A stretch of DNA of 37,255 nt from Lachnospiraceae bacterium. GTDB taxonomy: Bacteria; Bacillota; Clostridia; Lachnospirales; Lachnospiraceae. The notes below the pieces were generated by a model. The model was given only the letters and a program-made list of their open reading frames with translations. It was not told the DNA's origin and searched no databases. Below, piece after piece: positions 2,268 to 34,282 of the stretch. The DNA lies in contig JAILBQ010000107.1 in NCBI GenBank assembly GCA_024680815.1, positions 1 through 37,255 of the forward strand, written 5' to 3'. Each line of letters begins with the position of its first letter. The first letter of the stretch is position 1. A program made the translations under genes and the position numbers.

Positions 2268-2381
2268 AAATCTTCCTCCTAAAAAAACCTCTTTAAAATA
2301 GTTACCTCTATTAACCACCGGCAGAAAGCCAGTTATGTTAACCAGATTCAGACAGCCTTACAGTTTTTCCCGGGCCCCTGA
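2268..2381. other. dctM-dctP intercistronic region
   Basis: 114 bases between dctM and dctP. They hold a small 6-bp hairpin (2317-2322 with 2328-2333), one copy of the TTATGTHAACY motif (2333-2343), and the dctP ribosome site AGGAGG near 2275-2280. I see no convincing separate promoter. The gap may let dctP be expressed at a different level from the membrane subunits. Confidence 0.4.
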
Positions 2382-3719
2382 TTACTTACTGAACACCAGA
2401 CTGATCCCGGGCACATAGGTCACAAGGAGCAGCACCACCAGGCAGGCAATGATCATGGGCACCACGGCTTTTGAAATCATGGGCAGCGTCACCCTGTGAT
2501 ACTCCTCTCCCGTCTTCTTCTCCGTAACGGCCTTAGGAATCTTAAGCCCCATGGCCACAAAGAGATTCACTCCCACAGGAGGCGTGACCTGGCCGATTGC
2601 GAGGTTCACGGTGGCAAGTATGCCGAAGGCGATGGGATTGTAGCCAAGCTGCAGTGCCACCGGCAGCATGATCGGGATAAAGATGTACATGGCCGAGTTG
2701 GCGTCGATGAAGCAGCCCGCTATAAGGAATATTATGTTAACTATCACAAGAAAGACAATCTGATTTCCGGAGACCTTCGCAAGCAGCGCCTGGGCCGCCT
2801 GGGAAATGCCGAAAAGGGTACAGCAATAGGAAAACAGGGAAGCGGAGGCCACAATCAGCATGATGCCTCCGGTAGTCTTGGCGGAATCCACCATGATTCC
2901 GAAAAGATCCTTTAATTTTACTTCCTTATAAATAAACATTCCGACAATCAGACCGTAGACCACGGACACGGCCGCGGCTTCCGTGGGGGTAAATATCCCG
3001 CCGTAGATGCCGCCGAGGATTATAACCGGCATTAAAAGCCCCCAGAAGGCCTCCCGGAAGCTCTTCCATCTTTCCTTCCAGCTCCGTTTCGGATGCGAGG
3101 GCTTTAACCCCTTTCGGTTTGCCTCGAAAAGCACCACAATCGCCAGAGCCACACCCATTAAGATTCCGGGTATGATCCCTGCCATGAACATTTCACCCAC
3201 GTTGGTATTGGCAATTGAGGAATAGACCACAAAGGCAATGGACGGCGGAATGACTATGGCTATTGAGGAGGAGGTGGCCATGAGACCCTCCGAAAAAGCG
3301 GCCGAAAACCCCGACTCGATCATGGCCGGCACTAAAACCGCTCCGAGAGCCGCCACGGTGGCAGGGCCGGAACCGGATATGGCGCCGAAGAAGCAGGCCA
3401 CAATAACACAGACGATGGCCATGCCTCCCTTTCTGTGCCCCACGCAGTCATCTATGAAATTCACCAGCCTTGTGGAAATTCCCGCCCTGGCCATAATATT
3501 TCCCGACAGCACAAAGAAGGGGATGGCTAAAAGCAGAAACTTCGCGGTTCCGGTGTAGGTATTCGTGGCTATGATGCTTAAATCCAGCATGGAAAATTTC
3601 GGATCGGTGGCGGAGGCCACAAGCACCGTCAGGGCCGAGCTCATTCCAAGGCAGATCGCAATCGGCATGCCGATAATCAGCATAATAAAGAATGAAATGA
3701 AAAGTACCGCCGTGATCAT
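2382..3719 (-). CDS. dctM: TRAP transporter large permease subunit DctM
   Basis: Large membrane subunit of the TRAP carrier (445 residues), which moves the substrate with cation symport. It is hydrophobic throughout, consistent with about a dozen membrane segments. It has the family hallmarks GAISGSGPATVAALG at about residues 112-126 and IVIPPSIAFVVYS at about residues 155-167. The length is standard. It starts with ATG at 3717-3719, overlapping the dctQ stop by ATGA, so translation is coupled. It carries one TTATGTHAACY motif copy at 2732 within the VNII codons. Confidence 0.96.
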   Translation of the reverse strand: MITAVLFISFFIMLIIGMPIAICLGMSSALTVLVASATDPKFSMLDLSIIATNTYTGTAKFLLLAIPFFVLSGNIMARAGISTRLVNFIDDCVGHRKGGMAIVCVIVACFFGAISGSGPATVAALGAVLVPAMIESGFSAAFSEGLMATSSSIAIVIPPSIAFVVYSSIANTNVGEMFMAGIIPGILMGVALAIVVLFEANRKGLKPSHPKRSWKERWKSFREAFWGLLMPVIILGGIYGGIFTPTEAAAVSVVYGLIVGMFIYKEVKLKDLFGIMVDSAKTTGGIMLIVASASLFSYCCTLFGISQAAQALLAKVSGNQIVFLVIVNIIFLIAGCFIDANSAMYIFIPIMLPVALQLGYNPIAFGILATVNLAIGQVTPPVGVNLFVAMGLKIPKAVTEKKTGEEYHRVTLPMISKAVVPMIIACLVVLLLVTYVPGISLVFSK

Positions 3720-4219: not shown

Positions 4220-4267
4220 AGTATTCCTCCGAACAGGAGTGTTTTTTGCGACGACACGCGCTTTTTC

Positions 4268-4297
4268 ATTATATCTGAAAGAATTAATTCCCGTCAA
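4268..4297 (-). promoter_or_regulatory. Promoter of the TRAP operon
   Basis: TTGACG (4292-4297), an 18-base spacer, then a perfect TATAAT (4268-4273). The predicted start near 4261 leaves a leader of about 40 bases ending in GGAGG. There is no clear terminator between the LysE gene and this promoter, so some read-through from the ABC unit is possible. Confidence 0.75.
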
Positions 4298-4336
4298 GGA
4301 AGAGAACCGGTCAGTTTGTGACAAAAAGAGATTAAA

Positions 4337-5448: not shown

Positions 5449-6587
5449 TGCTCAGCCACCTCGCTTTCCTTAAGCTGATCGAGTCTCAGCTGCTCCGCCA
5501 TGCGGCTCTTCGCCCTGCGCTTCTTTGTTTCATACATAACAAGGGCGATGGTTATGACCGCATAGGAAACAAACACACGGAAATATTCGCCGATCATGGA
5601 ATCCCCGGTAAGCTTCGCTCCCGCCGAGGGCGCGACGATAAACATCAGATGGAAAAGCGTGACCCCCAGGAACACGTTTCCGATGGAAGCCCGGTCTACC
5701 GAGGCTCCGCCCACCAGCAGGGCCGCTATACAGAACATTCCTATCTGGGAATGGGAGCTGTAGGTGGCGATATTACCCATGTTCTGGAGATATATCACCA
5801 TACCGAAGCCCGCCAGGACGGTTGACATAATTATCGAAATAATTCTCGTGCGCTCCACATTTATTCCGGCGTCCTTCGAGACCTCCATATCCTGCCCAAC
5901 TGCCCGCATATCCTGTCCCAGCTTGGTTTTCCTGAACCAGACGATAAACAAGCAGAGGACAGCGATCAGAAGGAAGGTCGCGACCGGGATCTTCGCCCCG
6001 AAAACCGTTAAGGGAATCAGATCGTCCAGCTTCTGGCGCATATCAAGGAGGCTCACCGTATTCCTGATGCCGTAGCCTCTGGGAAGCTTTAAGGACGAAT
6101 GCTTTATGGGAATAACGGGTCCCATCAGGTAGAGCACGACAAACTGATATACTCCGTTGATAAAGTAGCTGATTATATAGCTTGTGACCATCTCACGGCC
6201 CTTGGCCATATTGAGGATCTTGCCGCAGATCAGTCCCAGAAGTATTGAAATCGGAATCGAAAGGATCATCGCCAGAACCATACCCGGTATTCCCACGATC
6301 TGCCAGTCCGCGGTGAGAATGAGGCCTATTTCCCCGGCCATCGCCCCCAGAGTCATGCCGAAATTAAGTCCCATCCCGGCCATAATCGGGATCAGGAGGC
6401 AGAGGATAAGGAAGGTATTACGTCCCATCCTGGTTACGATCTCGTTTAAGAGATAGCTCGGCGAGAAGCCGGACAGGGGGATACAGACGGCGCAGATCAG
6501 GATGAACATGATCGGCACGGTATTGGCTCCCAGAAAGCCGCCTATCTTCTGCACAGTACTTTTATTGGAATCCGTCTTATTCATCAT
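5445..6587 (-). CDS. ABC transporter permease (BPD_transp_2 / BMP type), second subunit
   Basis: A 380-residue integral membrane protein with about ten hydrophobic segments. It has the LivH/RbsC-type coupling loop KTKLGQDMRAVGQDMEVSKDAGI (about residues 219-241) and ALLVGGASVDRASIGNVFLG near the C-terminus, as in permeases of nucleoside/BMP-type importers. The start overlaps the upstream permease stop by ATGA. The two permeases form the heteromeric channel energised by the double ATPase. A TTATGTHAACY copy sits at 5821 within the Met-Ser-Thr codons. Confidence 0.93.
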   Translation of the reverse strand: MMNKTDSNKSTVQKIGGFLGANTVPIMFILICAVCIPLSGFSPSYLLNEIVTRMGRNTFLILCLLIPIMAGMGLNFGMTLGAMAGEIGLILTADWQIVGIPGMVLAMILSIPISILLGLICGKILNMAKGREMVTSYIISYFINGVYQFVVLYLMGPVIPIKHSSLKLPRGYGIRNTVSLLDMRQKLDDLIPLTVFGAKIPVATFLLIAVLCLFIVWFRKTKLGQDMRAVGQDMEVSKDAGINVERTRIISIIMSTVLAGFGMVIYLQNMGNIATYSSHSQIGMFCIAALLVGGASVDRASIGNVFLGVTLFHLMFIVAPSAGAKLTGDSMIGEYFRVFVSYAVITIALVMYETKKRRAKSRMAEQLRLDQLKESEVAEQ

Positions 6588-7654
6588 TTCGCCCTCTCTG
6601 TCTTTCTGGTCAGGGCATAGAGTATCATGCCGTTGGAAACGATAATACGTATTACCTCGCTCATATCCATGTGGATCATGTTGTTCATCACGGTCGGCGT
6701 CATCGTAACGATTCCCTGGAACAGGAAGGTCCCGATGATCACGTTGGCGATGGAGGCCTTGTTTACGCTGGCTCCGCCGATAAGGATTGCGGATACGGCA
6801 GGCAGGGCCATATAGAAGGGAGCCATGTATAACTGGATGAACCCGAAGCCCTGCTCGTATACAAGAATTCCCACCGCGGCAAGCCAGGTTGACATAACAA
6901 CAGAGAGCATTCTCATTTTATCGATATTTACTCCGGCAGCCCTTGCAAACACCGGGTTCGACCCCACCGCCGTCATGGCCGTTCCGGTTTTGGTATGGAG
7001 AAACGCCCATATCCCAAGGGCAATCAGGATAAAGAAAAGAATCGTTCCTGTCGGAATCGAGAGATTGCCGATATTGATCTGGAGGAAATTTGCCAGAACC
7101 TTGTCGTAGTAACCCTCCAGGGAAATGGTGGTCCTGAGGCCCTTGCCCGCCAGGCCCCAGACCATGTTCGGGCTGTGGTAGGGAAGCAGGAGCCACATCA
7201 TACACATAAAGGAAACCGATGAAAAGCCGACATAGGTGGCAATCATCATTTCCCCGCCTTTAATCTTATTTAGGAGCCATCCGTAAAACAACCCGAGAAT
7301 GATCGCGAAGGGCGTTGAGATCACGATCGCCGCAAAAAAGCTCAGGCCGCCGGTAAAGCCCAGTTCAACCGAAAGAGTGGCCCCTAAAAGTCCCGATATG
7401 ATTCCCAGCGGCAGACCGAAATTCAGCCCGCAGCCCGAATGCACCATCGGAACCATCGCCAGAACAAGGATTGCGTTCCAGCTGAAACGATTTATCGTAT
7501 TGGAAATCTGTGTCGGCAGATCAGCGCCCACCAACGGGGAAAGAATAAAAAGAAGCAGGAGGAAGCCCGCGATAATCAGTCTCGGAAGCCCGAAATCTGC
7601 GACCGCCTCCCGGCATCTGTCCATAAATGATTGTTTCTCCGCGTTTTCGTTCAT
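6584..7654 (-). CDS. ABC transporter permease (BPD_transp_2 / BMP type), first subunit
   Basis: A 356-residue membrane protein, paralogous to its neighbour. It has LNFGLPLGIISGLLGA near residues 76-91, the coupling loop HTKTGTAMTAVGSNPVFARAAGV, and SAILIGGASVNKASIANVIIG. The ATG at 7652-7654 has AAAGGAACGG upstream and lies 18 bases after the ATPase gene. One TTATGTHAACY copy is at 6888, again over Met-Ser-Thr codons. Confidence 0.93.
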   Translation of the reverse strand: MNENAEKQSFMDRCREAVADFGLPRLIIAGFLLLLFILSPLVGADLPTQISNTINRFSWNAILVLAMVPMVHSGCGLNFGLPLGIISGLLGATLSVELGFTGGLSFFAAIVISTPFAIILGLFYGWLLNKIKGGEMMIATYVGFSSVSFMCMMWLLLPYHSPNMVWGLAGKGLRTTISLEGYYDKVLANFLQINIGNLSIPTGTILFFILIALGIWAFLHTKTGTAMTAVGSNPVFARAAGVNIDKMRMLSVVMSTWLAAVGILVYEQGFGFIQLYMAPFYMALPAVSAILIGGASVNKASIANVIIGTFLFQGIVTMTPTVMNNMIHMDMSEVIRIIVSNGMILYALTRKTERAK

Positions 7655-10808: not shown

Positions 10809-13481
10809 TTATCTTTTTCTGGCGAAAATCAGTCCGAAGGTGCCGGGACCGCAGTTCGCGGAAATCGACGGAGAAGCCTTCTGGAAGATAATCTCCTTAA
10901 AAGCGGCCTTTTTTATAACCTCCGCCCTTATCTCCTGCAGATCCTGCTGGGACAGGCCGGTATAGGTTATAAACAAAGTGCTGTCATCGATGGTGCCCAG
11001 GGCTTCCAGCGCCTTGCTGATATATTCTTTTCTGAATTTGACCCTCCTGCCGATGCGGATTCCTCCCACCGTCAATTTACTGCGCTTAAGGATAATGATC
11101 GGATGGAGCATGAGTATCCGGCACACCGTATGGATCCTGTTGGGAAGACGACCGGCCCTGGCCAGAAACTCGGTATCGTCCACAATAAAGCTGGTACGGA
11201 CTTTGTCCCTCATCTCCTCCAATGAACTCACTATCTCCTCCACAGTTTTCTTCTCGCTCGAAAGCTTTCTCGCATAGAGAACCATGAGCCCCATTCCGCT
11301 TGACAGGTGCCCTGAATCGACAACCGTTACGTTGTCAAAGGTCTCCGCCGCCTCCAGCGCGTTCCGATAGCCTTCGCTGGCTTTTTTCGCTATTGTTATA
11401 TGGATTATGTTTTCGGCATTAACAAGATTTGCGGCAAAGAAATCCTCATAGCTTGCCACATCGGGCGGTTCGGAATGAACCTTGTTTGAAGGATCCTTCA
11501 TGTATACAAGTATTCCGTCGCTCTCCGTCTCCACCCCGTCCAGAAAGACACCGCGGTTCGTAACAACCCTGTAGGGCAGCACCGGAATATCCAGACGGGA
11601 AAGCACGGCATCCGGAAGATCACAGACACTGTCCGTGGTAATAAGGATCGGCACCTTTGCCCTGTGCTCCTCCAGTATCTCACGGGCCATGGCCTCCTCC
11701 GCCGCCCCGCTCCGGCTTATAATCAGATCCTTGGGCAGAAGCTTTAAGACGCTGGCCTCCAAAAGAGTACCGCTGACGGGCTTTAAGATATAGCCGTCAA
11801 AGCCCTCGTTTCTGTAAAGGGCCTGGTTGTCGCTTCCGGCATTGGCGGTCAGGGCAACGACCGGAGTTTCCCTGTTAAGGCCGCCCACCTGCTCCCTTAT
11901 GGCGTGCAGACACTCTATACCGTCCATTTCCGGCATCAGATGATCCATGAAAATCCCGTTGTAGTGGGTGCCTAACGTCTTCTGGAGGCATTCCTCCCCG
12001 CTGGTTACCGTGTCGATCTGGATTTTGGTTTCCCGAAGGAGCTTTGCGGCCACCATAAGATTCGCTTCGTTGTCATCCACGATAAGGATTCTTGCTCCCG
12101 GCGCCTCAAAGCTCTGGCGGTAGTGCTCCTGCTTGCTCATAACATGCATGGATTCCAGTGAAAGAGCTCCGATCTGACGGGCGTCAACCACATCCTGAGC
12201 CAGCTTTATAATAAACGTACTGCCTCTGGTATAGATACTGTTTACCGTGATTTCCCCGCCCATCAGATCCACGATCTGCTTGACGATGGAAAGCCCCAGA
12301 CCCGTGCCCTCAATAAGACGGTTTTTCTCCTGATCCACCCGCTTGAAAGCGTCAAAGAGATAGGGAATGTTTTCTTTTTTGATGCCCATACCGGTGTCCG
12401 CGATGGAATAGGTCACGAGAACCCTGTTTGTGGACAGCTTCTCACAGTGGATGGAAAGGGTTACCGAGCCGGAATTGGTATATTTGATGGCGTTATTCAG
12501 AACATTGACCAGCACCTGCTTTATCCTGACCTCGTCTCCGAAAAGCTGGGAGGGAAGGGAGGAATCCACATCCATATGGAAGCTTAAACCCTTTTTCTCC
12601 GCCCTCATCCATACCATGTTGACGATTTCGGAAAGCATGGTCGTGACCTCGTACGCCACAGGAACTATATCCATCTTTCCGGACTGCATCTTGGACATAT
12701 CCAGAATGTCATTGATAAGGGCAAGGAGCATCTTACTGGCTCCCTGAATGTTTTTGGCGTCCTCAGCCACCTCCGGGGAAATGGCATCCCGGAGTATCAT
12801 CTCGTCGAGACCGATTATGGTATTGATCGGAGTGCGGATTTCATGGCTCATGCTGGAGAAAAACCGGTTCTGGGCCTGGTTTAATTCCTCAATCTCCTTT
12901 TTCTGCTGCTGTGCCAGCTCATTTTCCGAACGGTAGACCTTGTTCTGGAAGGTAAGCAGAAGACAGATAAGAGAGCTCACAAGAATAAGCGCTACTGCCG
13001 AATCCACATAGGCGGCGTTTATGGTGTGGGGGCTGATCATATGAGGAAAACGGTAGGAATAGTAATATACAGCCAGAACCTCCGTCGCCCCGAGAGCGAT
13101 CATGTACCATTTGAGTCTTCCTTCCACCATAAGACAGACATAGGTGAAGCCCAGAACAAACCAGATAGGCGCTCCGCCGTACATTCCGCCCCCTAAAAAG
13201 TAGATCAGGGGCAGAATGATATTCAGTATAAAAAAGCCCGTCACCGCCGCTCCCAGCTGAATGCGCCGGGTATATACGGAAAGTGCGCAGAGTCCCCCCA
13301 CAAGCAATGCCGCGATGCCGAGAGTAATAACGCTTTCCTTATCCTCTCCCAGCAGGAAGCTGACCATGAAAGCGGAAATAAGAGCAAGCACTCCAATAGA
13401 AGAGATAAGGCGGTAAAGCCTCTCCTGAAGACTGAGAGAATGATCCATTATGGATAATAACCATCTTTTAATCAGTTTCAT
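10809..13481 (-). CDS. Hybrid histidine kinase-receiver-DegV fusion protein
   Basis: 890 residues. Residues 25-180 hold about six membrane segments and no extracellular domain. A short coiled coil leads to HisKA (SHEIRTP, phospho-His 213), HATPase_c (NAIKYT, DTGMGI, GTGLGL) and a receiver domain (acidic pair D469/D470, phospho-Asp 513 in FMDHLMPEMDG, T545, K567). The last 280 residues are a DegV (EDD) domain: TTDSVCDLPDAVLSRLDIPVLPYRV, HSEPPDVASY, VVDSGHLSSGMG, FLARAGRLP and a CGPGTFGLIF end. DegV proteins bind a fatty acid. Here the usual SGTY-type motif reads KKASEGY, so the pocket is altered. The start overlaps the upstream kinase stop by ATGA. The order kinase-receiver-DegV suggests lipid binding feeding a phosphorelay; I know no characterised example. 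Confidence 0.92.
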   Translation of the reverse strand: MKLIKRWLLSIMDHSLSLQERLYRLISSIGVLALISAFMVSFLLGEDKESVITLGIAALLVGGLCALSVYTRRIQLGAAVTGFFILNIILPLIYFLGGGMYGGAPIWFVLGFTYVCLMVEGRLKWYMIALGATEVLAVYYYSYRFPHMISPHTINAAYVDSAVALILVSSLICLLLTFQNKVYRSENELAQQQKKEIEELNQAQNRFFSSMSHEIRTPINTIIGLDEMILRDAISPEVAEDAKNIQGASKMLLALINDILDMSKMQSGKMDIVPVAYEVTTMLSEIVNMVWMRAEKKGLSFHMDVDSSLPSQLFGDEVRIKQVLVNVLNNAIKYTNSGSVTLSIHCEKLSTNRVLVTYSIADTGMGIKKENIPYLFDAFKRVDQEKNRLIEGTGLGLSIVKQIVDLMGGEITVNSIYTRGSTFIIKLAQDVVDARQIGALSLESMHVMSKQEHYRQSFEAPGARILIVDDNEANLMVAAKLLRETKIQIDTVTSGEECLQKTLGTHYNGIFMDHLMPEMDGIECLHAIREQVGGLNRETPVVALTANAGSDNQALYRNEGFDGYILKPVSGTLLEASVLKLLPKDLIISRSGAAEEAMAREILEEHRAKVPILITTDSVCDLPDAVLSRLDIPVLPYRVVTNRGVFLDGVETESDGILVYMKDPSNKVHSEPPDVASYEDFFAANLVNAENIIHITIAKKASEGYRNALEAAETFDNVTVVDSGHLSSGMGLMVLYARKLSSEKKTVEEIVSSLEEMRDKVRTSFIVDDTEFLARAGRLPNRIHTVCRILMLHPIIILKRSKLTVGGIRIGRRVKFRKEYISKALEALGTIDDSTLFITYTGLSQQDLQEIRAEVIKKAAFKEIIFQKASPSISANCGPGTFGLIFARKR

Positions 13482-16222: not shown

Positions 16223-17249
16223 CCGGATCCTCCCTCAGATTGTACATCGAGTCCTCTTCTATCATGGTTAACATAATTTCTGCGAACTGCGGATCAAACT
16301 GGGTGCCCTTCCCCAGCTCAATCTCCGACCGCACCCGCTCCTGAGGCATAACGCCGCGGTAGCTCCTTCTGGAGGTCATGGCATCGTAGGCGTCCGCAAC
16401 CCCGATAATCCGGGCCTCCACGGGAATCAGCTCCCCGGAAAGCCTGTCGGGATAGCCCAGCCCGTCGAAGCGTTCATGGTGCCAGCGGGCTCCGGTCACC
16501 AGCTCGGGAAACTCCGAAATATTCTTTAAAATCTGGGCCCCCAGCACAGGATGGTTCATAATCTGGGCGTATTCCTCTTCGGTGAGCTTTGCCGGCTTGT
16601 TGATTATGGAATCGGAAACGCCGATTTTGCCTACGTCGTGAAGCAGCCCCATCATGTAGATGTTTTCCTGATCCATGTCGGAAAACCCTGCCCTTTTCGC
16701 AATCTCTCTGGCATAGAAAGCCACTCTGGAGGAATGGCCGTTGGTATAGGTGTCCTTGGCGTCAATGGCCCCAGCCAGCGCTTTCACAATCTGCTGGGCC
16801 ATCTGCTCCACCCGGCGGTTCTGCTGTACCACCTCGGCGGTTTTTCGCTCCACCTCTCTTGTAAGATTTGACTGAAGCCTTGTCAGGTCAAGGGTATGCC
16901 GCACCCGAAGCAGCAGCACGTCCGGCACGAAAGGCTTTTTTATGAAGTCCATGGCCCCGGACCTTAAGGACTTTGTCTCCGTCCCGGTGTCCTCGTCCGC
17001 CGTAAGGAAGATCACGGGAATATCCGCAAGAGCCTTGTTTGCCCGGATTTTTTCCAGGGTTTCGAAGCCGTCGATCCCGGTCATATGCACGTCGAGGAGA
17101 ATGAGATCGGGCACGTTTCCCGCGAGAAACGCCAGGGCGTCCTCTCCGGATTTAAGGCAGCTTACGCGCATACTCTCTCCGCTGAGAATATGGCTTGCCA
17201 TTCTTAAATTGGAAGCGTCGTCGTCCACGACAAGGATCCATTCGGTCAT
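16212..17249 (-). CDS. Response regulator with HD-GYP phosphodiesterase domain
   Basis: 345 residues. A receiver domain (DDD at 9-11, phospho-Asp 53 in LLDVHMTGIDG, Lys in KKPF near 105) is joined by a coiled-coil linker (about 125-155) to an HD-GYP domain with HD at 204-205 and HHERFDGLGYP at 257-267. All metal and GYP residues I can check are present, so it should hydrolyse c-di-GMP under phosphorylation control. The start has GAGGTTTGAT upstream. It is the first gene of the signalling operon, followed by two hybrid kinases. A TTATGTHAACY copy lies at 16267 near its 3' end. Confidence 0.95.
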   Translation of the reverse strand: MTEWILVVDDDASNLRMASHILSGESMRVSCLKSGEDALAFLAGNVPDLILLDVHMTGIDGFETLEKIRANKALADIPVIFLTADEDTGTETKSLRSGAMDFIKKPFVPDVLLLRVRHTLDLTRLQSNLTREVERKTAEVVQQNRRVEQMAQQIVKALAGAIDAKDTYTNGHSSRVAFYAREIAKRAGFSDMDQENIYMMGLLHDVGKIGVSDSIINKPAKLTEEEYAQIMNHPVLGAQILKNISEFPELVTGARWHHERFDGLGYPDRLSGELIPVEARIIGVADAYDAMTSRRSYRGVMPQERVRSEIELGKGTQFDPQFAEIMLTMIEEDSMYNLREDPDGR

Positions 17250-17279: not shown

Positions 17280-17312
17280 TTATGTTAACCATCTGCCTGG
17301 ATTATGTCAACC
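17280..17312. promoter_or_regulatory. Pair of TTATGTHAACY motifs with a promoter-like arrangement
   Basis: TTATGTTAACC starts at 17280 and TTATGTCAACC at 17302, same orientation, 22 bp apart, in the 57-base gap between the radical SAM gene and the REC-HD-GYP gene. On the minus strand they include TTGACA (17305-17310), which also contains the radical SAM stop codon, and TAACAT (17282-17287), 17 bases apart. This may be the signalling operon promoter. If so, anything binding the motif would cover it. Confidence 0.45.
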
Positions 17313-18248
17313 TTTCTCCAGCTCCTCGGTTACTATTTTTCTTCTTAATCCCGCGTCTATAAAGTCACAATATTTGCAGAAGGGATAGTTGTGTCTTCCG
17401 TAGCGGACCTTTTCCCTGAGCTCCCGGTATTTCTCCCCGTTCCAGATGTCCACAAGCTTCTCTCTGGTAAGATCCCCGAGGCTTGTTGTCTCAAAATTAT
17501 CGCAGCAGCATATCCCCATATTTCCGTTGGGTTCAATCCAGACGTCTGTATAGGGCATGACACAGGTCTTTTTTATTACCTTCTTTTTGCCCTGCTTATT
17601 CGGGGCGGAGCCGGCCCGGTTCGTGAGCACCTCTTTAACATACCGCATCTGGATCAATATCTCAACTTCGCTGTAGGAACCGGGATGGGCCTTTACATGA
17701 TCGTAGATTTCCTTTATATTGTCGTGGAGCTTCATGTCCTCACAGTAATTGTTGATGATCAACTGGTTTACATAAGGTTTGATCTGGTCCAGCTTTTCTA
17801 TGTTGAGCAGGAGGCCATTAGTTGACATAAATATAAACACTCCGGGCAGCTTTTCCCTGGCGTACCTGTGAAATTCGACTATTCTCTTATCCAGCCAGGG
17901 CTCGTTGTTCCCGTACAGCGTCAGACGGTTGGGATACTTCCATTCCGCAAGCTGGTCAATGACGGATCTGTAGAGCTCGTCTGATATTTTGGCGAAAGGA
18001 CGCCGCTCCGCGTAGCGGTTTGCCGTGCAGAAGGCGCAGGTGGAATTGCAGCGGTTGATGGTTTCGATATTGACCACGTCCGGATAGGGAGCGCGCTCCT
18101 CCTTCATGAACTGCTCGATGAATTCCCTCTGCTTGTTGTCCCGCTTTAAGAACTGCATCGTAAGATACGCCCAGGCCGCCAGATTCGGCAGGTACTTCCT
18201 GGCATTCCATCCTATGATACCGGCATAATTGACAATTTTTATTGACAT
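17307..18248 (-). CDS. Radical SAM protein with SPASM-type C-terminal cysteines
   Basis: 313 residues. The cluster motif is CNSTCAFC (C67, C71, C74), preceded by the first TIM-barrel strand VVNIETINR. STNG near residue 142 suits the SAM-binding region. The C-terminal part has C229, GICCCDN (247-249) and CKYC (291, 294), with WIEPNGNMG, typical of SPASM auxiliary clusters. The first 50 residues are basic and hydrophobic. The substrate cannot be named. Being downstream of a sugar kinase and nucleotidyltransferase suggests modification of an activated sugar or surface polymer, by inference. AAAGGGAATC precedes the ATG. Motif copies lie at 17766 and 17821 inside the gene. Confidence 0.88.
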   Translation of the reverse strand: MSIKIVNYAGIIGWNARKYLPNLAAWAYLTMQFLKRDNKQREFIEQFMKEERAPYPDVVNIETINRCNSTCAFCTANRYAERRPFAKISDELYRSVIDQLAEWKYPNRLTLYGNNEPWLDKRIVEFHRYAREKLPGVFIFMSTNGLLLNIEKLDQIKPYVNQLIINNYCEDMKLHDNIKEIYDHVKAHPGSYSEVEILIQMRYVKEVLTNRAGSAPNKQGKKKVIKKTCVMPYTDVWIEPNGNMGICCCDNFETTSLGDLTREKLVDIWNGEKYRELREKVRYGRHNYPFCKYCDFIDAGLRRKIVTEELEKG

Positions 18249-18266
18249 ATGATTCCCTTTCGAATA

Positions 18267-18313
18267 GTTGACATAATATTTAGCAGCCGTGCACCGGCTA
18301 TAGTTTACATAAC
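18267..18313. repeat. Second intergenic pair of TTATGTHAACY motifs
   Basis: Between the nucleotidyltransferase and radical SAM genes, AGTTGACATAA (18266-18276) and AGTTTACATAA (18302-18312) read in the same direction 36 bp apart, both followed outward by the same TAT extension. A small GCCG/CGGC stem lies between them. The second copy contains the nucleotidyltransferase stop codon. Confidence 0.6.
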
Positions 18314-20087: not shown

Positions 20088-20171
20088 GCCGGCGTGTCGG
20101 AATTGGCAGACGAGACAGACTCAAAATCTGTTATCCGCAAGGGTGTGTGGGTCCGAGTCCCACCGCCGGCA
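20088..20171 (+). tRNA. tRNA-Leu, anticodon CAA
   Basis: 84 bases with a long variable arm as in class II tRNAs. The acceptor stem GCCGGCG pairs with CGCCGGC, discriminator A at 20171. The anticodon stem ACAGA/TCTGT encloses CTCAAAA, giving anticodon CAA for UUG. The variable arm is ATCC-GCAA-GGGT, and the T arm is GTGGG/CCCAC with loop TCCGAGT. CCA is not encoded: the next bases are CTA, which are also the reverse complement of the TAG stop of the convergent HD-GYP gene. Confidence 0.96.
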
Positions 20172-22379
20172 CTACTTTTCCTCCTTTGGATCCTCCTCCG
20201 CAGAAGCCTCCGAAAAGATCTGGGTTCCCTGGCCCAGCGCGGACTCGTGGGCTTTCGTGATTTCTCTGACCTCCTCCGCGGATTCCACGAAAATTTCCGC
20301 TATAGAAGCGTCAAACTGGCTTCCCGCCCCTTCTTTGATTATCTCCATTGACTTCTCAAAAGTGAACGGCTCCTTGTAGCTTCTTCTTGAAACCAGGGCG
20401 TCAAACACATCCGCAACGGCCATAATCCGGGCCGATAAAGGAATCTCCTCTCCGGCCTTCCCCTTAGGATACCCTTTTCCGTCCCATCTTTCATGATGGT
20501 AGGTCGCAAGGTTCCTGGCCTCCTTTAAGTACCCGCTGTCGGAAACCAGCTTCATGGCGCTTTCTATGATCCTGCTTCCGGCGGTGGTGTGGCTCTTCAT
20601 AATTGCGAACTCTTCATCGGTGAGCCGGCCGGGCTTGTTTAATATGACATCCGAAACCATGATTTTTCCGACATCGTGCAAAGGAGCGGAATTGGCCACA
20701 TCCTCCACGTATTCATCGGTCAGGACGTCCGGATACAGCCCTTTTTCCCGCATTTTCGTAAGGATAAGGCGCACATAGGCCGCGGTTTTGCGGACATGAT
20801 CCCCCGTATTTTTGTCACGGCTTTCAACCATGTCGGCAAGGACATAGATAAGGCCGTTCTGCATGTGCGCGATCTCCTCACCCTTGGCCTCCACATCCTC
20901 AAGATAGCCCACTGTCTCGGCTATCGTCTTGGAGAGGGATTCATAGAGATTCTCGATTTCATCCCCCGTGGCTATGTCCAGGCGCTGAAGCCGCTCAACG
21001 CTCTTGTCCCGCCCCTCCTCTGTGTCATAGGCAAATTTTCTGGCGGACATGGTCATCGCCGCAATCGGGAAAATAAGATGGTAGTCCACAAGCCAGATAA
21101 GGAGGGCAAGAATGAAAATGTAGAAGCCCATGAAAAGGGAGAAAACCTTGGTCATGTAATTCAAGGTCGAAAGCCTTATGTCCTCCACCTTTATATCCGC
21201 CGCGGCGTAGCACACGGATTCCCCTGCGGAATTATATACCGGTGCAAAAACGGTAAGCAGCGGCCCGTACATCGTATCGTCCAGCAGCGGCTCCACCTCT
21301 CTGCCCGCAATAAGATCCTCCCTGCAAGGTTCAAGATATTTCTCAAGCTCTATCATATTTCCCGGATCCACTCCCTTAACCTCGGGAGTATCGAGGTCGA
21401 AGAGCACCTGAACCCCGTCCTCCAGAAACCTGTATACGTAAATAAACTCAATATCGGGATTTCCCTCCCGGATGTCCTCCAGCTCGCTTTCTATCCGCAT
21501 ATAATCGGGCCCGGCTTCCCCGAGAGAGGCGTATTCGCCGATTTTATCCCCGTCGATAAGGTCGGAAGCAAGCCTGGCAGCACTGGTGCAGCTGAAGGTA
21601 TACTGCTTAAGGGCAAAGCTCTGGAACAGAAAATAGCTTATGATTGTGGTGACAACGGCCACGCAGAACATGATAACGGTTATGATGGTAACTATTTTGC
21701 TGCGAAGGGAAAAGGATCTTGTGACATTCTTTTTGGCGTCCAGGAGCGCCTCCTTTGTCATAGGAGCCTGACGCCAGCCCGTGAGCCACAGTCCCGGTTT
21801 TAAGCGGTCGGGAATAGCTTTGAGAATTATGTAAACCAGAATCACCGTAATGGCCTTATCGACAAGGTCAATAGTTACGTCCGAGGCCATCTGGGCCCAG
21901 AACGCGTTAAATCTTTCGCTGCTTAAAAGGGAGGTGGCGAAAGAGGAGGAAATCCCCTCTCCGATTCCGTAGCCGTAGAGGAGATAGGTGAGAATTGAAC
22001 CGAGAACTCCGCCGATAAAAGCGAAAACCGGAATTGTCAGAACCGCCTTACGGAATTTTTCAAAATAGCCCTTGCTGCCGAGCCAGGTTCCCATGGCGGC
22101 AATCATTGTTGAAAGTACGACGTAATAGGCGTTGCCGGGATTGCCCCGCATGTTTATGATGTTGTTTAAGTATCCTACAAATATTCCGGGAAGGTATCCG
22201 CCGAGCACCGCTGCCAGAAGTGTGCCCACATTGTCGAGATACAGCGGGATGTTCAGAGCCGTCGCGGTTCGAGGCAAAATAAAATTGATGGCTATGGCTC
22301 CTGCGAAAAACGCCATCTGGAAAACAAGATACTTACGGCCCTTATTGTCGGCTGATTTTGTTATTCTGCTTCTGTCCAT
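20172..22379 (-). CDS. Membrane HD-GYP protein with ECF-like N-terminus and extracellular sensor
   Basis: 735 residues. Residues 18-190 form a multi-helix membrane domain (NIPLYLDNVGTLLAAVLGGY, GYLNNIIN) that resembles ECF-transporter S-component-like sensor modules. A helix at 228-252 leads to an extracellular Cache-like domain (about 260-405, with FIYVYRF and LLTVFAPVYNSAGE), a helix at 412-435, a HAMP-like linker, and an HD-GYP domain with HD at 568-569 and HHERWDGKGYP at 628-638. A complete motif set predicts c-di-GMP hydrolysis. The acidic tail ends in TAG directly against the tRNA-Leu gene. GGAGGGGATCGG precedes the ATG. It carries a motif copy at 21827. Confidence 0.93.
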   Translation of the reverse strand: MDRSRITKSADNKGRKYLVFQMAFFAGAIAINFILPRTATALNIPLYLDNVGTLLAAVLGGYLPGIFVGYLNNIINMRGNPGNAYYVVLSTMIAAMGTWLGSKGYFEKFRKAVLTIPVFAFIGGVLGSILTYLLYGYGIGEGISSSFATSLLSSERFNAFWAQMASDVTIDLVDKAITVILVYIILKAIPDRLKPGLWLTGWRQAPMTKEALLDAKKNVTRSFSLRSKIVTIITVIMFCVAVVTTIISYFLFQSFALKQYTFSCTSAARLASDLIDGDKIGEYASLGEAGPDYMRIESELEDIREGNPDIEFIYVYRFLEDGVQVLFDLDTPEVKGVDPGNMIELEKYLEPCREDLIAGREVEPLLDDTMYGPLLTVFAPVYNSAGESVCYAAADIKVEDIRLSTLNYMTKVFSLFMGFYIFILALLIWLVDYHLIFPIAAMTMSARKFAYDTEEGRDKSVERLQRLDIATGDEIENLYESLSKTIAETVGYLEDVEAKGEEIAHMQNGLIYVLADMVESRDKNTGDHVRKTAAYVRLILTKMREKGLYPDVLTDEYVEDVANSAPLHDVGKIMVSDVILNKPGRLTDEEFAIMKSHTTAGSRIIESAMKLVSDSGYLKEARNLATYHHERWDGKGYPKGKAGEEIPLSARIMAVADVFDALVSRRSYKEPFTFEKSMEIIKEGAGSQFDASIAEIFVESAEEVREITKAHESALGQGTQIFSEASAEEDPKEEK

Positions 22380-22921: not shown

Positions 22922-24508
22922 CGCGGCCGCAACAAAGCCTTTAAAGAGGGGATGGGCCTTGTTGGGTCTGGATTTGAATTCCGGGTGGGCCTGGGTTGCC
23001 AGGAAAAACGGGTGCTCCGGCAGCTCGATCATCTCGACTATCCTGCCGTCGGGAGACTGGCCGGAAATCTTTAAGCCGCCCTTCGTAAGCTCCTCCCGGT
23101 AATAATTATTCACCTCATATCTGTGACGGTGGCGTTCGGATATATTCTCCTGCCCATAGAGCCTGAAAGCTTTCGAGGACTTGTCGAGAACGCAGGGATA
23201 GGCCCCGAGCCGCAGCGTCCCCCCTATATCCTTAAGCCCGTCCTTTTCAGGCATTATGTGGATAAGGGGATGGGAAGTTTCGGGATCCTGCTCCGTGGAG
23301 TTGGCATCCGAAAAGCCCAGAATATCCCGGGCGAATTCCACAATCGCAAGCTGCATACCCAGGCAGAGTCCGAGGAATGGAAGCTCCTTTTCCCGGGCAT
23401 ATTTTATGGCTGTAAGCATCCCGTCGATTCCTCTGTGACCGAAGCCGCCGGGCACTATGAGTCCGTCCACGTCCTTAAGCAGATCCTCAACGGTATCTTC
23501 CGTAATATCTTCGGAGGAAATCCATTTTATGTTAACCTCTGCGCCGTTGGCTCCCCCCGCGTGCCGGAGAGCTTCCACCACACTTATGTAGGAATCGTGA
23601 AGGGAGACATATTTCCCGACCAGGGCAATGGTTACCTTTCTTTCGGGGTTTAAGAGCCGGTCCACCATCTCCGACCATTCCTTAAGATCCGGCTTGTTGT
23701 CGGGAATTCCAAGGGCCTCGCAGACCACATCGGCCAGGTGCTCCTTTTCCAGGGCAAGAGGCGCGGCGTAAACAGTGGGGAGGTTTAAGTTCTGTATCAC
23801 ATTTTTCTTCGGAACGTTGCAGAAAAGAGACAGCTTTTCCCTGATATCATCCCCGAGGGGCTTCTCGGTGCGGGCCACTATTATGTCGGGACGGAGCCCC
23901 AGGCTCTGCAGCTCCCTCACGCTTGCCTGGGTGGGTTTGGTCTTAAGCTCCTCCGAGGCATGCAGATAGGTTATCAGGGTGACATGAATAAGGATAACAT
24001 TTTCATGTCCCATTTCCTGCTGGAACTGTCTTATGGATTCGATAAAGGGCTGGCTTTCTATGTCACCTACGGTGCCGCCCACCTCGATTATCGCTATATG
24101 CTCCTCGTCCGAGCCGTCATTTCTGTAGAAGCGGCTCTTTATCTCGTTGGTTATATGGGGTATAACCTGCACGGTGCCCCCGCCGTAGTCTCCCCGTCTT
24201 TCCTTATTGAGCACGGTCCAGTACACCTTTCCGGTGGTCACGTTGCTCCGTACGTCCAGCTCCTCGTCGGTAAAGCGCTCATAGTGCCCGAGATCCAGGT
24301 CTGTTTCCGTTCCGTCCTCTGTCACAAAGACCTCTCCGTGCTGAATCGGGTTCATGGTTCCCGGGTCGATGTTTATATAGGGATCGAATTTCTGGATCGT
24401 GACCCTGTAGCCCCGCTCCTTTAACAGTCTTCCCAGCGACGCGGCCGTGATGCCCTTGCCGAGTCCCGAAACCACTCCTCCCGTAACGAAAACATACTTT
24501 ACCGACAT
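22904..24508 (-). CDS. pyrG: CTP synthase
   Basis: Makes CTP from UTP, ATP and glutamine. 534 residues, normal length. The amidoligase half starts [23 protein letters not shown] and has [14 protein letters not shown] and [16 protein letters not shown]. The class I glutaminase half has PGGFGHRG and the nucleophile in [11 protein letters not shown], with the HPEF catalytic pair near the C-terminus. It lies 10 bases after gltD with TAGGAGGAAG before the ATG, as last gene of asnB-gltB-gltD-pyrG. Its 3' end overlaps the convergent Rrf2 gene. One motif copy is at 23527. Confidence 0.98.
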
Positions 24509-29000: not shown

Positions 29001-30502
29001 AAATAACAGAACAGCGGCTGGTGGTGCTCCGAAAGCATCGCCAGCGGAATATCCGTCCCCATGGAAACCGTGGGTTCTATGCCGCTTTCCGCCATGGGCA
29101 TAATCTGCTCCTTAACGTCCTCATAGGTATAGCCGAAGACCTTATAGAGCTTGTCCCGTATTTCCTGGGTATGGGTATATATCTTTTTATTCGGAACCGA
29201 AAGGGAATCAAGATGGAGAAGGTAGCGGTCCAGCCACTCGCCGTAGGGCTTTGCGCAGGAATATCTTTCCTTGCATTCCTCATCCGAAACGATGCGGCCT
29301 TCCTTTGTGTCCACCAGAAGCATATGCCCCGGAGAAAGACGTGATTTAATCTCAATGTCTTCCTCCGGTATATTTAAAACTCCCACCTCCGATGCAAGGA
29401 TAAGTCTTCCGTTTTTTGTCACATAGTATCTCGAGGGCCTCAGTCCGTTGCGGTCCAGGGTCGCGCCGAACATCTCCCCGTCTGTGAAGAGCACGGCCGC
29501 GGGTCCGTCCCAGGGCTCCATCATCGTGGCGTAATAATGATAAAAATCCTTCCTGTTTTTATCCATGAAATCATTGTGCTTCCAGGGCTCGGGCATCAGG
29601 ATCATCATGGAAAGAGGGAGCGGCAGGCCGTTCATATAGAGGAATTCCAGGGTGTTGTCCAGCATTGCGGAATCCGACCCCGAGGAAGATATTACCGGAT
29701 AGACCTTATCCAGCTCTCCCGCAAGAATTTCCGAAACGCAGGTCTCCTCTCTTGCCAGCATCCTGTCGCTGTTTCCCCTGATCGTATTTATTTCTCCGTT
29801 ATGCGCTATCATCCTGTAGGGGTGGGAGCGCTGCCAGGACGGAGTCGTATTCGTGGAAAAACGGCTGTGAACCACGGCTATGGCGGTTTTGTAGTCCGGT
29901 GATTTCAGATCTTCATAAAAGTTCCTCAGCTGCCCCACGAGAAACATGCCCTTATAGACTATGGTTCTCGACGAGAAGGAGCAGATATAGCTGTCCTCGG
30001 AGGATTTTTCGTATTCTCTCCTGAGGCAGTAGAGCTTTCTGTCAAAATCTATCCCCTGGTTTACATAATCTGGCCTCTCCACAAAGCACTGGGAGATAAA
30101 GGGCATGCAGTTTCGGGCCACCTCTCCCAGAATCCCGGGGCTTATCGGAACGTCCCGCCAGCCGAGAACCTTTAAGCCTTCCTTCTCGGCTATGACCTCC
30201 AGCATCCTCTTTTCAAACATGCGTTTCATGGGATTTACGGGCAGGAAAAACATTCCGATGCCGTAGTCGCCGGCGTCCTTTAAGGCAATGCCGGCTTTTT
30301 CCGCCGCGCCCTTAAAGAAGGCGTGGGAAATCTGCATAAGAATCCCGACGCCGTCTCCGACCTTTCCGGTGGCGTCCTTCCCTGCCCTGTGCTCCAGCTT
30401 TTCCACTATCGAAAGCGCGTCTGACAAAACAGCCGAATCGGGTTTTCCGTTTATGTTTATTACCGCCCCTATCCCGCAGGCGTCGTGCTCCATGTTCAGC
30501 AT
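26009..30502 (-). CDS. gltB: Glutamate synthase large subunit
   Basis: 1497 residues, full length. The N-terminal glutaminase starts after a short propeptide at HDACGIGAV (nucleophile Cys 9). The FMN/synthase domain has GEGGEDPARFG and GGTGAAPSSSVHHAGLPWELG. The 3Fe-4S ligands are in CMGCMMMRVCSKDSCPAGIATQ. The C-terminal GXGXG helix has the NARGGGGQSFGAF and GGKLIVSPP region. It makes two glutamates from glutamine and 2-oxoglutarate. GGAGGAATAATC precedes the ATG at 30500-30502; a second Met three codons later is possible. It lies 28 bases after asnB. Confidence 0.98.
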   Translation of the reverse strand: MLNMEHDACGIGAVININGKPDSAVLSDALSIVEKLEHRAGKDATGKVGDGVGILMQISHAFFKGAAEKAGIALKDAGDYGIGMFFLPVNPMKRMFEKRMLEVIAEKEGLKVLGWRDVPISPGILGEVARNCMPFISQCFVERPDYVNQGIDFDRKLYCLRREYEKSSEDSYICSFSSRTIVYKGMFLVGQLRNFYEDLKSPDYKTAIAVVHSRFSTNTTPSWQRSHPYRMIAHNGEINTIRGNSDRMLAREETCVSEILAGELDKVYPVISSSGSDSAMLDNTLEFLYMNGLPLPLSMMILMPEPWKHNDFMDKNRKDFYHYYATMMEPWDGPAAVLFTDGEMFGATLDRNGLRPSRYYVTKNGRLILASEVGVLNIPEEDIEIKSRLSPGHMLLVDTKEGRIVSDEECKERYSCAKPYGEWLDRYLLHLDSLSVPNKKIYTHTQEIRDKLYKVFGYTYEDVKEQIMPMAESGIEPTVSMGTDIPLAMLSEHHQPLFCYFKQLFAQVTNPPIDSLREKIVTDTTVYIGSDGNLLMEKSGNCRVLEVNNPVLTGVDLLKIASLNEPGFYAAKVSLLYYKNTSLERALDQLNISVDRLVTEGKNIIILSDRGVDENHMPIPSLLAVSSVEQHLVRTKRRTKVSLILESGEPRDVHQMAALLGFGARAVNPYLAHECIAELIDRGILDKDYHTAIADYNNALLKGVVKIAAKMGISTLQSYQSARIFEAIGLSEEMTERYFTGTISRVGGIGINDIGEDVELRHDKAFDPLGLPTDTSLDSFGFHSLRSGEDMEDHMYSPKTIVTLQRAVREGDYERFKEYAAMVDAEDKPHTLRALMTFNPVNDPVPLEEVESEEEIMKRFQTGAMSFGSLSGEAHETLAMAMNSFGGKSNTGEGGEDPARFGTDKNSAVKQVASGRFGVTSRYLQSAKEIQIKMAQGAKPGEGGHLPGKKVYPHVASIRFSTPGVSLISPPPHHDIYSIEDLAQLIYDLKNANDRARISVKLVSEAGVGTIASGVAKAGAGVILVSGYDGGTGAAPSSSVHHAGLPWELGLSEAHKSLLDNGLRSRVVLETDGKLMTGRDVAIAALLGAEEFGFATAPLVCMGCMMMRVCSKDSCPAGIATQNEELRKRFSAKPEHVVNFFRFIARVLREIMSSLGFKKLEDMVGRTDCLKERAIPGTRCENSTDLSLILDRSYALREKSHFEPADLYDFALEKTLDQRVLIPAYEKAKAKKNFGADVTVEVSSTDRSFGTLLGGRVTQDFKNTLKDDTIIVNARGGGGQSFGAFLPKGITIRLKGDANDGFGKGLSGGKLIVSPPENACYKARENIIIGNVALYGATEGKAYICGIAGERFCVRNSGAIAVSEGCGDHGLEYMTGGKAVILGMTGKNFAAGMSGGTAYVLDREHTLYLRMNKDMASLYELTEKYDIAELKEILEDYVKETGSEFGREILEDFDSFIPDFKKIVPNDYQRMLTLISRFEEQGIDHEHAVLEAFKELS

Positions 30503-32247: not shown

Positions 32248-32518
32248 ACCTTGAACACCTCCCCGTATATAACCGGGCTTTTGTCTCTGATCGTCATTAA
32301 GATATTTTTTCTTAAGATTTTTAACAAAAGGATAAGAATTTGAACACATTTTAAACACAACCCGCAAATATAATGTATCTCAGATAGTCAAAACTATCTC
32401 CCCCTCATAAGTGTGCGAGATGATGAGAGCGTCTTTTGACGACACTCAATTCAAATGCGCAACACGGGCCGATGGAGCCTCCCCTCCACCGGCCCTTCTC
32501 CCGTTTTAAGGGACTTTT
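32225..32518. other. Gene-free region with three further stem-loops between rqcH and asnB
   Basis: About 290 bases without a coding frame. Stem-loops: GGGCCG-TGGAG with CTCCA-CGGCCC (32467-32496, 12 pairs including one G-U), a CGTC/GACG core stem (about 32427-32442), and AGATAGT with ACTATCT (32382-32399). A plus-strand TATAAT is at 32369-32374 with a poor -35. The first hairpin could end rqcH transcripts, although no good U-tract follows on either strand. The rest may be a structured RNA of unknown strand. Confidence 0.45.
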
Positions 32519-34282
32519 CTAATCCTCCAGAAGCGTCAGCGCACTGATATCCGAATCTATCGCCATTGAATAATTCGTATAATACACCACAAACCCGGGT
32601 CTGCTTCCGGCAGGCTTCTTCACTTCCTTTTTCCTGACATAGTCAATTTCCACCCTGGTCTGTCCCCTTCCCTTTGAATAATAGGCTGCCAGAGCTCCCG
32701 CCTCGTTAAAGGCCCGGTCCGGAATGTTTTCCGGGTCGTGTTCTCCCACATGAAGGATCACATGGGAGCCCGGGAATTTTTTGGCGTGAAACCACCAGTC
32801 GGAGGAAGAGGCAAACCGGAAGGTCAGCTCATCGTTCTGATAATTATTCTTTCCCACATAGAGGTCAAAACCGTCGGAAGAGCGGTAATGCAGTGGCTTC
32901 GACTTAAATCTTGCCTCACCTTTGGAAACGCTCCTTTTTTTAATATATCCGCTCTCCGAAAGCTCCCGGCGGATAGCTGAAAGATCCGCCTCGGTTTCCG
33001 CTATCTCAAGAGCGTTCTGAATGGACATTAAATGCTCCAGCGTTTCCTCTGTCTCCGCTATCAGGACCGTCACCGCTTCCTCCGTACGCTTAAGCTTGCC
33101 GTAACGGTCAAAATAATGCTTAGCGTTTTCCTTCATCGAAAGCTCCGGATCCAGGGGAACGGTAAGTGTCTCTCCCTCATGATAAAAATCCGGCGCCTCA
33201 AAGGAAGAGGCTCCCTCCTCCACCCCGTAGCCGTAGGTGTTTATGAGTTCCCCGTACAGCCGGTAACGTTCCTTTTTTTCCGTGTCCTCGAGCTGTTTTC
33301 TCTGGATATCCAGCTTTTTCGCGCAGCGCTCTATAAGGGTTGCCACAATTTTCCTTAAATCGGCCGAGCGCTGTCGCATCCTTGTATACGCGTTCTTCTC
33401 GGCATACCAGGCCTCAAGCAGAGAGCTCACGGAACTATAGTTTACATAACTTAAATCTCCGAACTGGGTGAGCTTAAGGGCGGCAAACTCCAAAGGTTTA
33501 CCGTTATCATAATAAATCACCGGACTGAACCGCTTATTTGCAATGTCCTCAACAAGTTTACATAACTCTTTATAAAGCTGTCTGACCTTCCCGCTGTCGC
33601 CTTCGGGAGAGGCGGTGGAGGCGTCGGGGTCAATTCCCGCACGGAAACAAAGCTCCGATGCCATTACCGGGGAAAGCCCCAGAAATCTCCCCGTCAGGGC
33701 CTGTGCCATGCTGCGGGATCCCTCCTCCGTTACTGAACGGAAAAATTCAAAGCTCACTCCCTTAAGGGGATCGGCCTTGGAGGCTGTATTCGGAATAAAA
33801 TACTCCCGGCCGGGCAGCACCTCCCTCACTGTGCTGACAGAAGCGCTTATATGCTTTATGCTGTCGATTATGCATCCGTCCCCGTCTACGAAAATCAGAT
33901 TACTGTGCTTTCCCATAAGTTCCAGGGAAAGGAGTTTTTCCGCCTGATCTCCCAGCTCGTTTAGATGCTCGATCCTTATCTGCAGCACCCGTTCCAGCCC
34001 CGGCTGGGATACGGATAATATCCGTCCGCCGGAGAGGTGCTTTCGAAGCAGCATGCAGAAGCCGGGAGCCGTCATCGGACTTACCAGATTTTTTTCCGTA
34101 AGATAAGCCAAAGGGAGGGAAGCGTTGGCGGACAGTAAAAGCCGCTCGCTTCTCTCCCTTGTCTTTATCGTCAAAAGGATGGCGTCACCCTCCGGCTGGG
34201 CAATTTTGCTTATACGCCCGCCGCTTAAACGCCCGTTCAGTTCCGCGGCCAGAGCCGCAATTGTTACACCGTCCAGTGCCAC
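32519..34282 (-). CDS. rqcH: RqcH (NFACT / fibronectin-binding A family) ribosome quality control factor
   Basis: 587 residues. The NFACT-N domain starts ALDGVTIAALAAELNGRLSGGRISKIAQP, a coiled-coil middle follows (about 310-450), and the C-terminal NFACT-R has DWWFHAKKFPGSHVILHV. RqcH binds stalled 50S-peptidyl-tRNA and adds alanine tails. The paired Asp-Arg described in RqcH is written Glu-Arg in PGLERVLQI here. The start is GTG at 34280-34282; an ATG start is excluded by an in-frame stop directly before it. Motif copies lie at 33440 and 33556. It is a single gene with its own promoter and a ten-codon upstream frame. Confidence 0.93.
   Translation of the reverse strand: MALDGVTIAALAAELNGRLSGGRISKIAQPEGDAILLTIKTRERSERLLLSANASLPLAYLTEKNLVSPMTAPGFCMLLRKHLSGGRILSVSQPGLERVLQIRIEHLNELGDQAEKLLSLELMGKHSNLIFVDGDGCIIDSIKHISASVSTVREVLPGREYFIPNTASKADPLKGVSFEFFRSVTEEGSRSMAQALTGRFLGLSPVMASELCFRAGIDPDASTASPEGDSGKVRQLYKELCKLVEDIANKRFSPVIYYDNGKPLEFAALKLTQFGDLSYVNYSSVSSLLEAWYAEKNAYTRMRQRSADLRKIVATLIERCAKKLDIQRKQLEDTEKKERYRLYGELINTYGYGVEEGASSFEAPDFYHEGETLTVPLDPELSMKENAKHYFDRYGKLKRTEEAVTVLIAETEETLEHLMSIQNALEIAETEADLSAIRRELSESGYIKKRSVSKGEARFKSKPLHYRSSDGFDLYVGKNNYQNDELTFRFASSSDWWFHAKKFPGSHVILHVGEHDPENIPDRAFNEAGALAAYYSKGRGQTRVEIDYVRKKEVKKPAGSRPGFVVYYTNYSMAIDSDISALTLLED

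Follow-up and report, generated by a model that had tools for sequence, protein, structure and literature searches.

Why should one 11-bp word recur sixteen times in a single contig, within genes and between them, on both strands? This is the question raised by the stretch of DNA analysed here, the window, which is the whole of contig JAILBQ010000107.1 (37,255 nucleotides) from the draft genome of a Lachnospiraceae bacterium (GCA_024680815.1). The word is TTATGTHAACY. It coincides with the XerD arm of dif, it is associated with XerD across the family, and it gathers on the origin side of three mapped chromosomes. On balance, we favour the explanation that isolated XerD half-sites mark the origin-side arms, probably as a distributed form of the XerD sites at which SMC complexes are unloaded in Bacillus.

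The word and the XerD arm of dif

The window holds 16 exact copies, 6 on the plus strand and 10 on the minus strand. A sequence-only reading had counted the same 16 –giving, for the minus-strand copies, the second base of the 11-mer– and every one was found. As it had noticed, all of them have A, C or T at the variable position and end in C or T; no one-base variant was found in the window. It had also expected fewer than one copy at random, and dinucleotide shuffles of the window gave a mean of 0.08 copies and at most 2, with 0 of 100 reaching 16.

Five copies are intergenic or lie over a stop codon, and the other 11 fall entirely in coding sequence. All three phases and both orientations are represented among these (8 in gene sense, 3 opposite), in agreement with the earlier description. 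Codon bias had been discounted as a cause, rightly: synonymous codon shuffling of the 22 open reading frames (ORFs) taken as genes in the window produced a mean of 0.283 copies (maximum 3), and 0 of 1000 shuffles reached the observed 11. The word is also sharp. In 248,582 examined bases of the window's own genome, 56 exact copies stood against 5 one-base variants, all classes together, in a sample mostly made of stretches chosen for containing the word, which favours the exact count. The base following the word was never C in these 56 copies.

The right arm of dif is the one that XerD binds. In the accessible part of PMC3025954, B. subtilis dif is given as ACTTCCTAGAATATATATTATGTAAACT, which ends in TTATGTAAACT. 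This 11-base ending is among the six sequences that TTATGTHAACY permits. Moreover, the word agrees exactly with the arms of inverted pairs at the terminus of one relative (G046) and with one such arm in another (G102). From the match of the letters, the word is very probably a XerD half-site, and we infer, with good probability, that XerD reads it. Because the word equals the XerD arm of dif, XerD was tested across genomes.

The window's own genome (G000) is a 2.86-Mb draft of 145 contigs, 92.9% complete, in which the window is contig C60. The CTP synthases most similar to the one encoded in the window come from Lachnospiraceae. The whole draft carries 182 copies (97 and 85 by strand) against 2 (1 and 1) for the reversed-pattern control. 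The genome-wide count proposed as a check thus came out far above its control, and the word is not a property of the window alone. The worry that the enrichment might be confined to the window falls in that form, with the reservation that the window is unusually rich: it has 429 copies per Mb against 64 in the genome (about 7-fold), and 16 of the 182 copies in 1.3% of the sequence.

The family sample comprised 150 Lachnospiraceae genomes from 149 genera, G000 included. At least one copy is present in 147 of them, with a range from 0 to 182. XerD was called from a match to TIGR02225 of at least 280 bits (the curated cut-off is 329.6), and it was found in 79 genomes, 55 of them above the curated cut-off; 8 genomes without a XerD row among the matches listed were counted as lacking it. 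The median is 22 copies in genomes with XerD against 6 in the others, and the logarithm of the ratio of word to reversed control differs between the two groups (p about 1e-10, kinship ignored). Summed over the genomes with XerD, the word counts 2548 against 1257 for the control; over those that lack it, the counts are 610 against 1211. Among genomes at least 90% complete with at least 20 copies, 35 of 36, including G000, encode XerD, the exception being G033; among all 150, the figure is 44 of 47, with G033, G064 and G128 as exceptions. The XerD of G000 (C16:19892-20755) is full length, scores 355 bits, over the cut-off, and matches the solved XerD structure 1a0p.

The use of an altered word, TTATGTCTAC, by G061, which has XerD and no copies, was not supported in 89,917 bases of that genome. 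Around the CTP synthase gene of relatives, 80 loci (1.36 Mb) held 2 copies against 5 of the control, so the copies are not conserved at that locus.

Position along the chromosome

Four copy-rich genomes had long contigs and a located dnaA: G046, G102, G149 and G150. G150 is Blautia parvula (NZ_CP084061), with dnaA near 4.253 Mb and a terminus set at 0.985 Mb by skew. G046 is one contig of 6.93 Mb, and the main contig of G102 is 3.59 Mb, of 5 contigs; dnaA lies at the first bases in both, and the terminus was set at an inverted pair of the word. GC skew was sampled along G046, G102 and G150 for the terminus side. The four arms of two inverted pairs were excluded from the 37 copies of G046. In G102 one pair arm was excluded, and 5 of the 38 copies, not among the matches listed, went unused. 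All 87 copies of G150 were used, including 2 near the terminus in imperfect inverted pairs.

The origin-side halves of the replichores hold 83 of 87 tested copies in G150, 30 of 33 in G046 and 29 of 32 in G102, leaving 4, 3 and 3 copies, respectively, in the terminus-side halves. Counted by replichore tenth from origin to terminus, the copies number 14, 27, 22, 15, 5, 0, 0, 1, 0 and 3 in G150 (Kolmogorov-Smirnov p 2.5e-23); 11, 5, 7, 5, 2, 1, 1, 0, 0 and 1 in G046 (p 1.6e-7); and 6, 4, 10, 2, 7, 2, 1, 0, 0 and 0 in G102 (p 4.8e-6). In G149, a draft with dnaA at 14 kb of C1, copies judged by eye are dense to 1.62 Mb and sparse thereafter.

These results support the general proposal that the word is functional across the genome, for instance in the nucleoid or in segregation: it equals the XerD arm, tracks XerD across 150 genomes and lies largely origin-side in three relatives. 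We had first suspected that XerD sites of Bacillus type were clustered at the terminus; this was ruled out for the mapped relatives, whose origin-anchored chromosomes show the opposite. The origin-side field is likely a general feature of enriched genomes. From the three relatives we infer the same geography for the window's own genome; gltB and pyrG could not serve to place the window relative to its origin, as genomes differ in the order of these genes.

At the origin itself, parS, whose consensus we take to be TGTTTCACGTGAAACA, adjoins parAB in all seven origin regions read (G000, G046, G079, G080, G102, G149 and G150). In four of them (G000, G046, G079 and G149) the word lies inside mnmG, within about 2.3 kb of parS; G080 and G150 have copies elsewhere in the parAB region, and the 15 kb read in G102 holds no copy. 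One mnmG site is common to G046, G149 and G079, and the site of G000 lies elsewhere in the gene.

At the other end of the chromosome, we looked for inverted pairs, defined as two facing copies with a 5-bp spacer (27 bp) and up to 3 mismatches; gaps from 3 to 8 were tried in selected stretches only. Such pairs occur in 43 of 150 genomes, of which 39 encode XerD, against 11 genomes for the reversed pattern, so some of the weaker pairs are due to chance. In all three skew-sampled genomes they fall in the interval where skew switches. One pair of G046 (C1:3,273,415) lies in a 15-kb stretch whose cumulative skew has a shallow peak about 2 kb away, and the second (C1:3295516) lies 22 kb further on, where the skew has by then turned consistently negative. 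The G102 pair at 1,748,672 lies between a positive (1.60 Mb) and a negative (1.85 Mb) skew sample, and the 17-kb stretch around it shows no clear maximum. G150 has two imperfect pairs, at 1.027 and 1.052 Mb, within its switch interval. We regard these terminus pairs, in which both arms are of XerD type, as candidate dif sites. Several inverted pairs, including both of G046, are lengthened by further inverted sequence into long hairpins, and such extended pairs could alternatively be terminators or cruciforms.

A dif site has two inverted arms, a short spacer and a place near the GC-skew switch. The window copies do not have this form at the 5-bp spacing searched: with up to 3 mismatches, no window copy has a partner arm, and the four places in G000 that do are all outside C60. 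One of the G000 pairs (C45:27705-27731) is perfect and has a lexA-like gene on one side and an Rrf2-like regulator gene on the other, both named by eye; beside the lexA-like gene is a divergent gene for a short LysM protein, YneA-like by eye. We also looked for a dif of Bacillus type (left arm TTCCTANAA, 6-bp spacer, up to 3 mismatches). Of 18 genomes, 16 yielded no more matches than the reversed control did; the exceptions were G060 (9 against 1) and G080 (6 against 5).

In G000 the XerD model gave six matches; by score, XerD itself is the only one of XerC/XerD class, no direct search for XerC having been made. In G149, G046, G085 and G000, a second recombinase is encoded at about 2, 6, 6.5 and 11 kb, respectively, from an inverted pair. 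It has 358-397 amino acids, and the model that fits it best, XerS, scores 205 to 224 bits, short of the 267 of its cut-off. This XerS-like recombinase may be a separate dimer-resolution system of the family. G149 has 43 matches to the XerD model, which is suggestive of many phages or invertible switches.

Copies and genes in the window

The copies in the window are the following.

2333..2343, plus strand: TTATGTTAACC, XerD half-site-like word, intergenic
2732..2742, plus strand: TTATGTTAACT within a DctM gene
5820..5830, minus strand: TTATGTCAACC within an ABC permease gene
6887..6897, minus strand: TTATGTCAACC within an ABC permease gene
16266..16276, minus strand: TTATGTTAACC within a response regulator-HD domain gene
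17280..17290, plus strand: TTATGTTAACC, intergenic, first member of a tandem pair
17302..17312, plus strand: TTATGTCAACC over the 3' end (stop) of a radical SAM/SPASM gene, second member of the tandem pair
17765..17775, minus strand: TTATGTAAACC within the radical SAM/SPASM gene; the same place is occupied in the 82% identical paralogue on C112
17820..17830, minus strand: TTATGTCAACT within the radical SAM/SPASM gene; the C112 paralogue has TTATGTCAACC there
18266..18276, minus strand: TTATGTCAACT, intergenic
18302..18312, minus strand: TTATGTAAACT over the 3' end (stop) of a nucleotidyltransferase-like gene
21827..21837, plus strand: TTATGTAAACC within an HD-domain gene
23527..23537, plus strand: TTATGTTAACC within the CTP synthase gene
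30058..30068, minus strand: TTATGTAAACC within the glutamate synthase large-chain gene
33439..33449, minus strand: TTATGTAAACT within an NFACT gene
33555..33565, minus strand: TTATGTAAACT within the NFACT gene

The radical SAM/SPASM and nucleotidyltransferase genes (window 17311-19140) are duplicated, with 77-82% identity, at 923-3047 of C112, a 3.7-kb contig of G000, and two copies of the word sit at matching coding places in both sets. A tRNA-gene stretch of 86 bp (window 20088-20173) is 100% identical on C112. Besides, a single ORF on the minus strand (10809-13481) joins HisKA, HATPase_c, response-regulator and C-terminal DegV domains, a fusion that looks unusual. The AT-richer end of the window carries a gene for a clostripain-family (C11) peptidase (34716-36665, plus strand), on the strand opposite to the other 21 ORFs.

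Possible roles and known systems

The favoured explanation would run as follows. The word would be an 11-bp XerD half-site, present in isolated copies and distinct from dif. In many XerD-encoding Lachnospiraceae, selection would have placed tens to nearly two hundred copies, on the origin-side arms where these could be mapped. XerD alone, bound to isolated copies, would act on chromosome organisation, and its likeliest job would be the unloading of translocating SMC complexes, as attributed to XerD of B. subtilis. The sites would form a graded brake from the parS loading zone along the arms, and not a single unloading zone at the terminus. Since the copies in the mapped genomes begin near the parS loading zone and end by mid-arm, graded removal of SMC could explain both the origin-side field and the poor terminus. 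SMC as the target is proposed by analogy with Bacillus and held tentatively.

In B. subtilis, Karaboja et al. (2021) reportedly described XerD-specific sites (XDS) in the terminus region, independent of XerC and dif. The available portions of PMC8357415, PMC8242196 and PMC13220808 present XerD as an SMC unloader near the terminus, and those of PMC10945525 suggest that several sites are perhaps needed for unloading. A broader version, which we put somewhat short of even, takes XerD in XerD-encoding Lachnospiraceae as a positional marker of the origin half: a graded field of half-sites from parS outward would strip SMC or time division, as a mirror of the Bacillus terminus system. In some of these bacteria, perhaps in G000, there would be no second partner of XerC/XerD class, and an inverted pair of XerD arms near the XerS-like gene would serve as dif.

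Several observations weigh against this explanation. For B. subtilis, unloading is described at the terminus in the portions of the literature available, and the accessible text of PMC13342612 argues for dif as the main unloading site across a wider panel. XerD and the word do not always go together: G033 (90% complete) has 76 copies, and G064 (61% complete) and G128 (69% complete) are also copy-rich, with XerD not found in any of the three. XerD is also insufficient, with 0 copies in G061 and G081, 3 in G059 and 4 in G118, all of which encode it, and shared ancestry may partly lie behind the association. The density is uneven, as the dnaA contig of G000 has only 2 copies in 76.5 kb and 36 of the 56 copies of G120 lie on one 180-kb contig of a single skew sign, which is unplaced. 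A conserved EQVNI/EQVDI peptide is encoded at the shared mnmG site, whose conservation is therefore weak evidence. Finally, copies lie outside genes more often than the noncoding share of the sequence, and some form arrays upstream of genes, as a transcription factor would also explain; both points are taken up below.

The main rival is a timer resembling nucleoid occlusion, in which XerD or another protein, bound to the sites on the origin side, holds division back until the arms next to the origin have moved away, and the terminus is kept free of sites to let division begin there. The nearly empty terminus-side halves of the three mapped relatives are what it would predict, and Noc itself seems to be missing: a match over the curated cut-off was found in 0 of 14 tested genomes, against 1 of 14 control genomes. 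Yet G085, G035, G062 and G002, with 0 or 1 copy, have no Noc match over the cut-off either, so the lack of Noc does not go along with the word. We found no link of XerD to the division machinery, and we know of none. Noc and SlmA sites share the geography, being under-represented in Ter according to the accessible parts of PMC4726725 and PMC4117426, but they are palindromic (PMC4726725, same limit) and TTATGTHAACY is not. We consider this timer unlikely.

An operator for a transcription factor that has nothing to do with XerD, its site matching the XerD arm by coincidence, draws on the gene context. Of the 56 copies examined in G000, 24 are not fully within an ORF, when about 10% of the examined sequence is noncoding, and the same holds for 14 of 36 copies on C4 of G120. 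Arrays of five and six copies stand upstream of genes on C124 of G000 and C4 of G120, the latter with six copies in 131 bp upstream of a trigger-factor-like gene, identified by eye. Also by eye, arrays lie beside fabG/fabF-like gene pairs in both genomes (G000 C66:18796-18865 and G120 C4:73416-73470), which in two genera may be chance or a shared regulatory site. However, 32 of the 56 copies lie within ORFs (21 in gene sense, 11 opposite), and no fixed spacing was seen within the arrays, which are irregular. An operator leaves the XerD association, the terminus inverted pairs and the origin-side confinement unexplained, and we rate it as quite unlikely.

The suggestions of a DNA-uptake or recombination signal find no support. 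An uptake word should occur all round the chromosome, and Chi- and KOPS-like words are polar. A word of either kind (Chi, KOPS or SRS as polar guides, or an uptake sequence) would account for many copies, also within genes, but orientation relative to the fork is 47:40 in G150, 12:21 in G046 and 17:15 in G102, not different from even. The proposed check for strand bias relative to replication hence found no polarity in these relatives. Copies in their terminus halves are few, and across the 71 genomes without XerD the summed count is below the reversed control, three exceptions apart. This alternative, already contradicted in the mapped genomes, is very improbable. The target of a methyltransferase or restriction system is equally so, for it would suit a sharp word with few one-base variants, but neither a one-sided distribution on the chromosome nor a match to the XerD arm would be expected of it.

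Where and how SMC leaves the chromosome is known in few bacteria. If isolated XerD half-sites do unload it along the origin-side arms, many gut Lachnospiraceae use the Bacillus protein and half-site in the opposite half of the chromosome, and the geography of unloading can evolve and be read from sequence. A map of the word would then predict chromosome architecture, and may help to sort origin-side from terminus-side contigs in drafts. In species whose genomes are complete, for instance Blautia parvula, a link between copy density and SMC range would also be open to direct test. The protein and the half-site were already known; what is unexpected is the geography and the copy number. Among the matches listed from the openly licensed literature, none described such a word field in Lachnospiraceae.

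Compared with known systems, the copies in the three relatives show neither the polarity of KOPS, SRS and Chi nor the whole-chromosome spread of DNA-uptake sequences. They resemble matS as a dispersed short site, of which several are perhaps needed to act on SMC-type complexes (in the available text of PMC10945525), but matS marks the terminus and involves another protein and another site. With Noc and SlmA sites they share tens of origin-rich, terminus-poor positions, a distribution found in the three relatives and described in the accessible part of PMC4726725; the non-palindromic word and the lack of Noc set them apart.

The right arm of dif is the same word, and the mapped relatives have, near the terminus, inverted pairs of it or of close variants, whereas the isolated copies have no partner arm. 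The candidate dif has 27 bp, with XerD-type arms on both sides and 5 bp between them; the seeds in the accessible part of PMC3025954 are of 28 bp. The closest parallel is with the XDS of B. subtilis. Unlike these, the Lachnospiraceae copies are origin-side, with few in the terminus half of the three relatives, and number up to 182. Like them, they are isolated half-sites with the sequence of the XerD arm, in genomes that encode XerD and, in the seven read, carry parS beside parAB, and a role of XerD besides recombination is possible in both.

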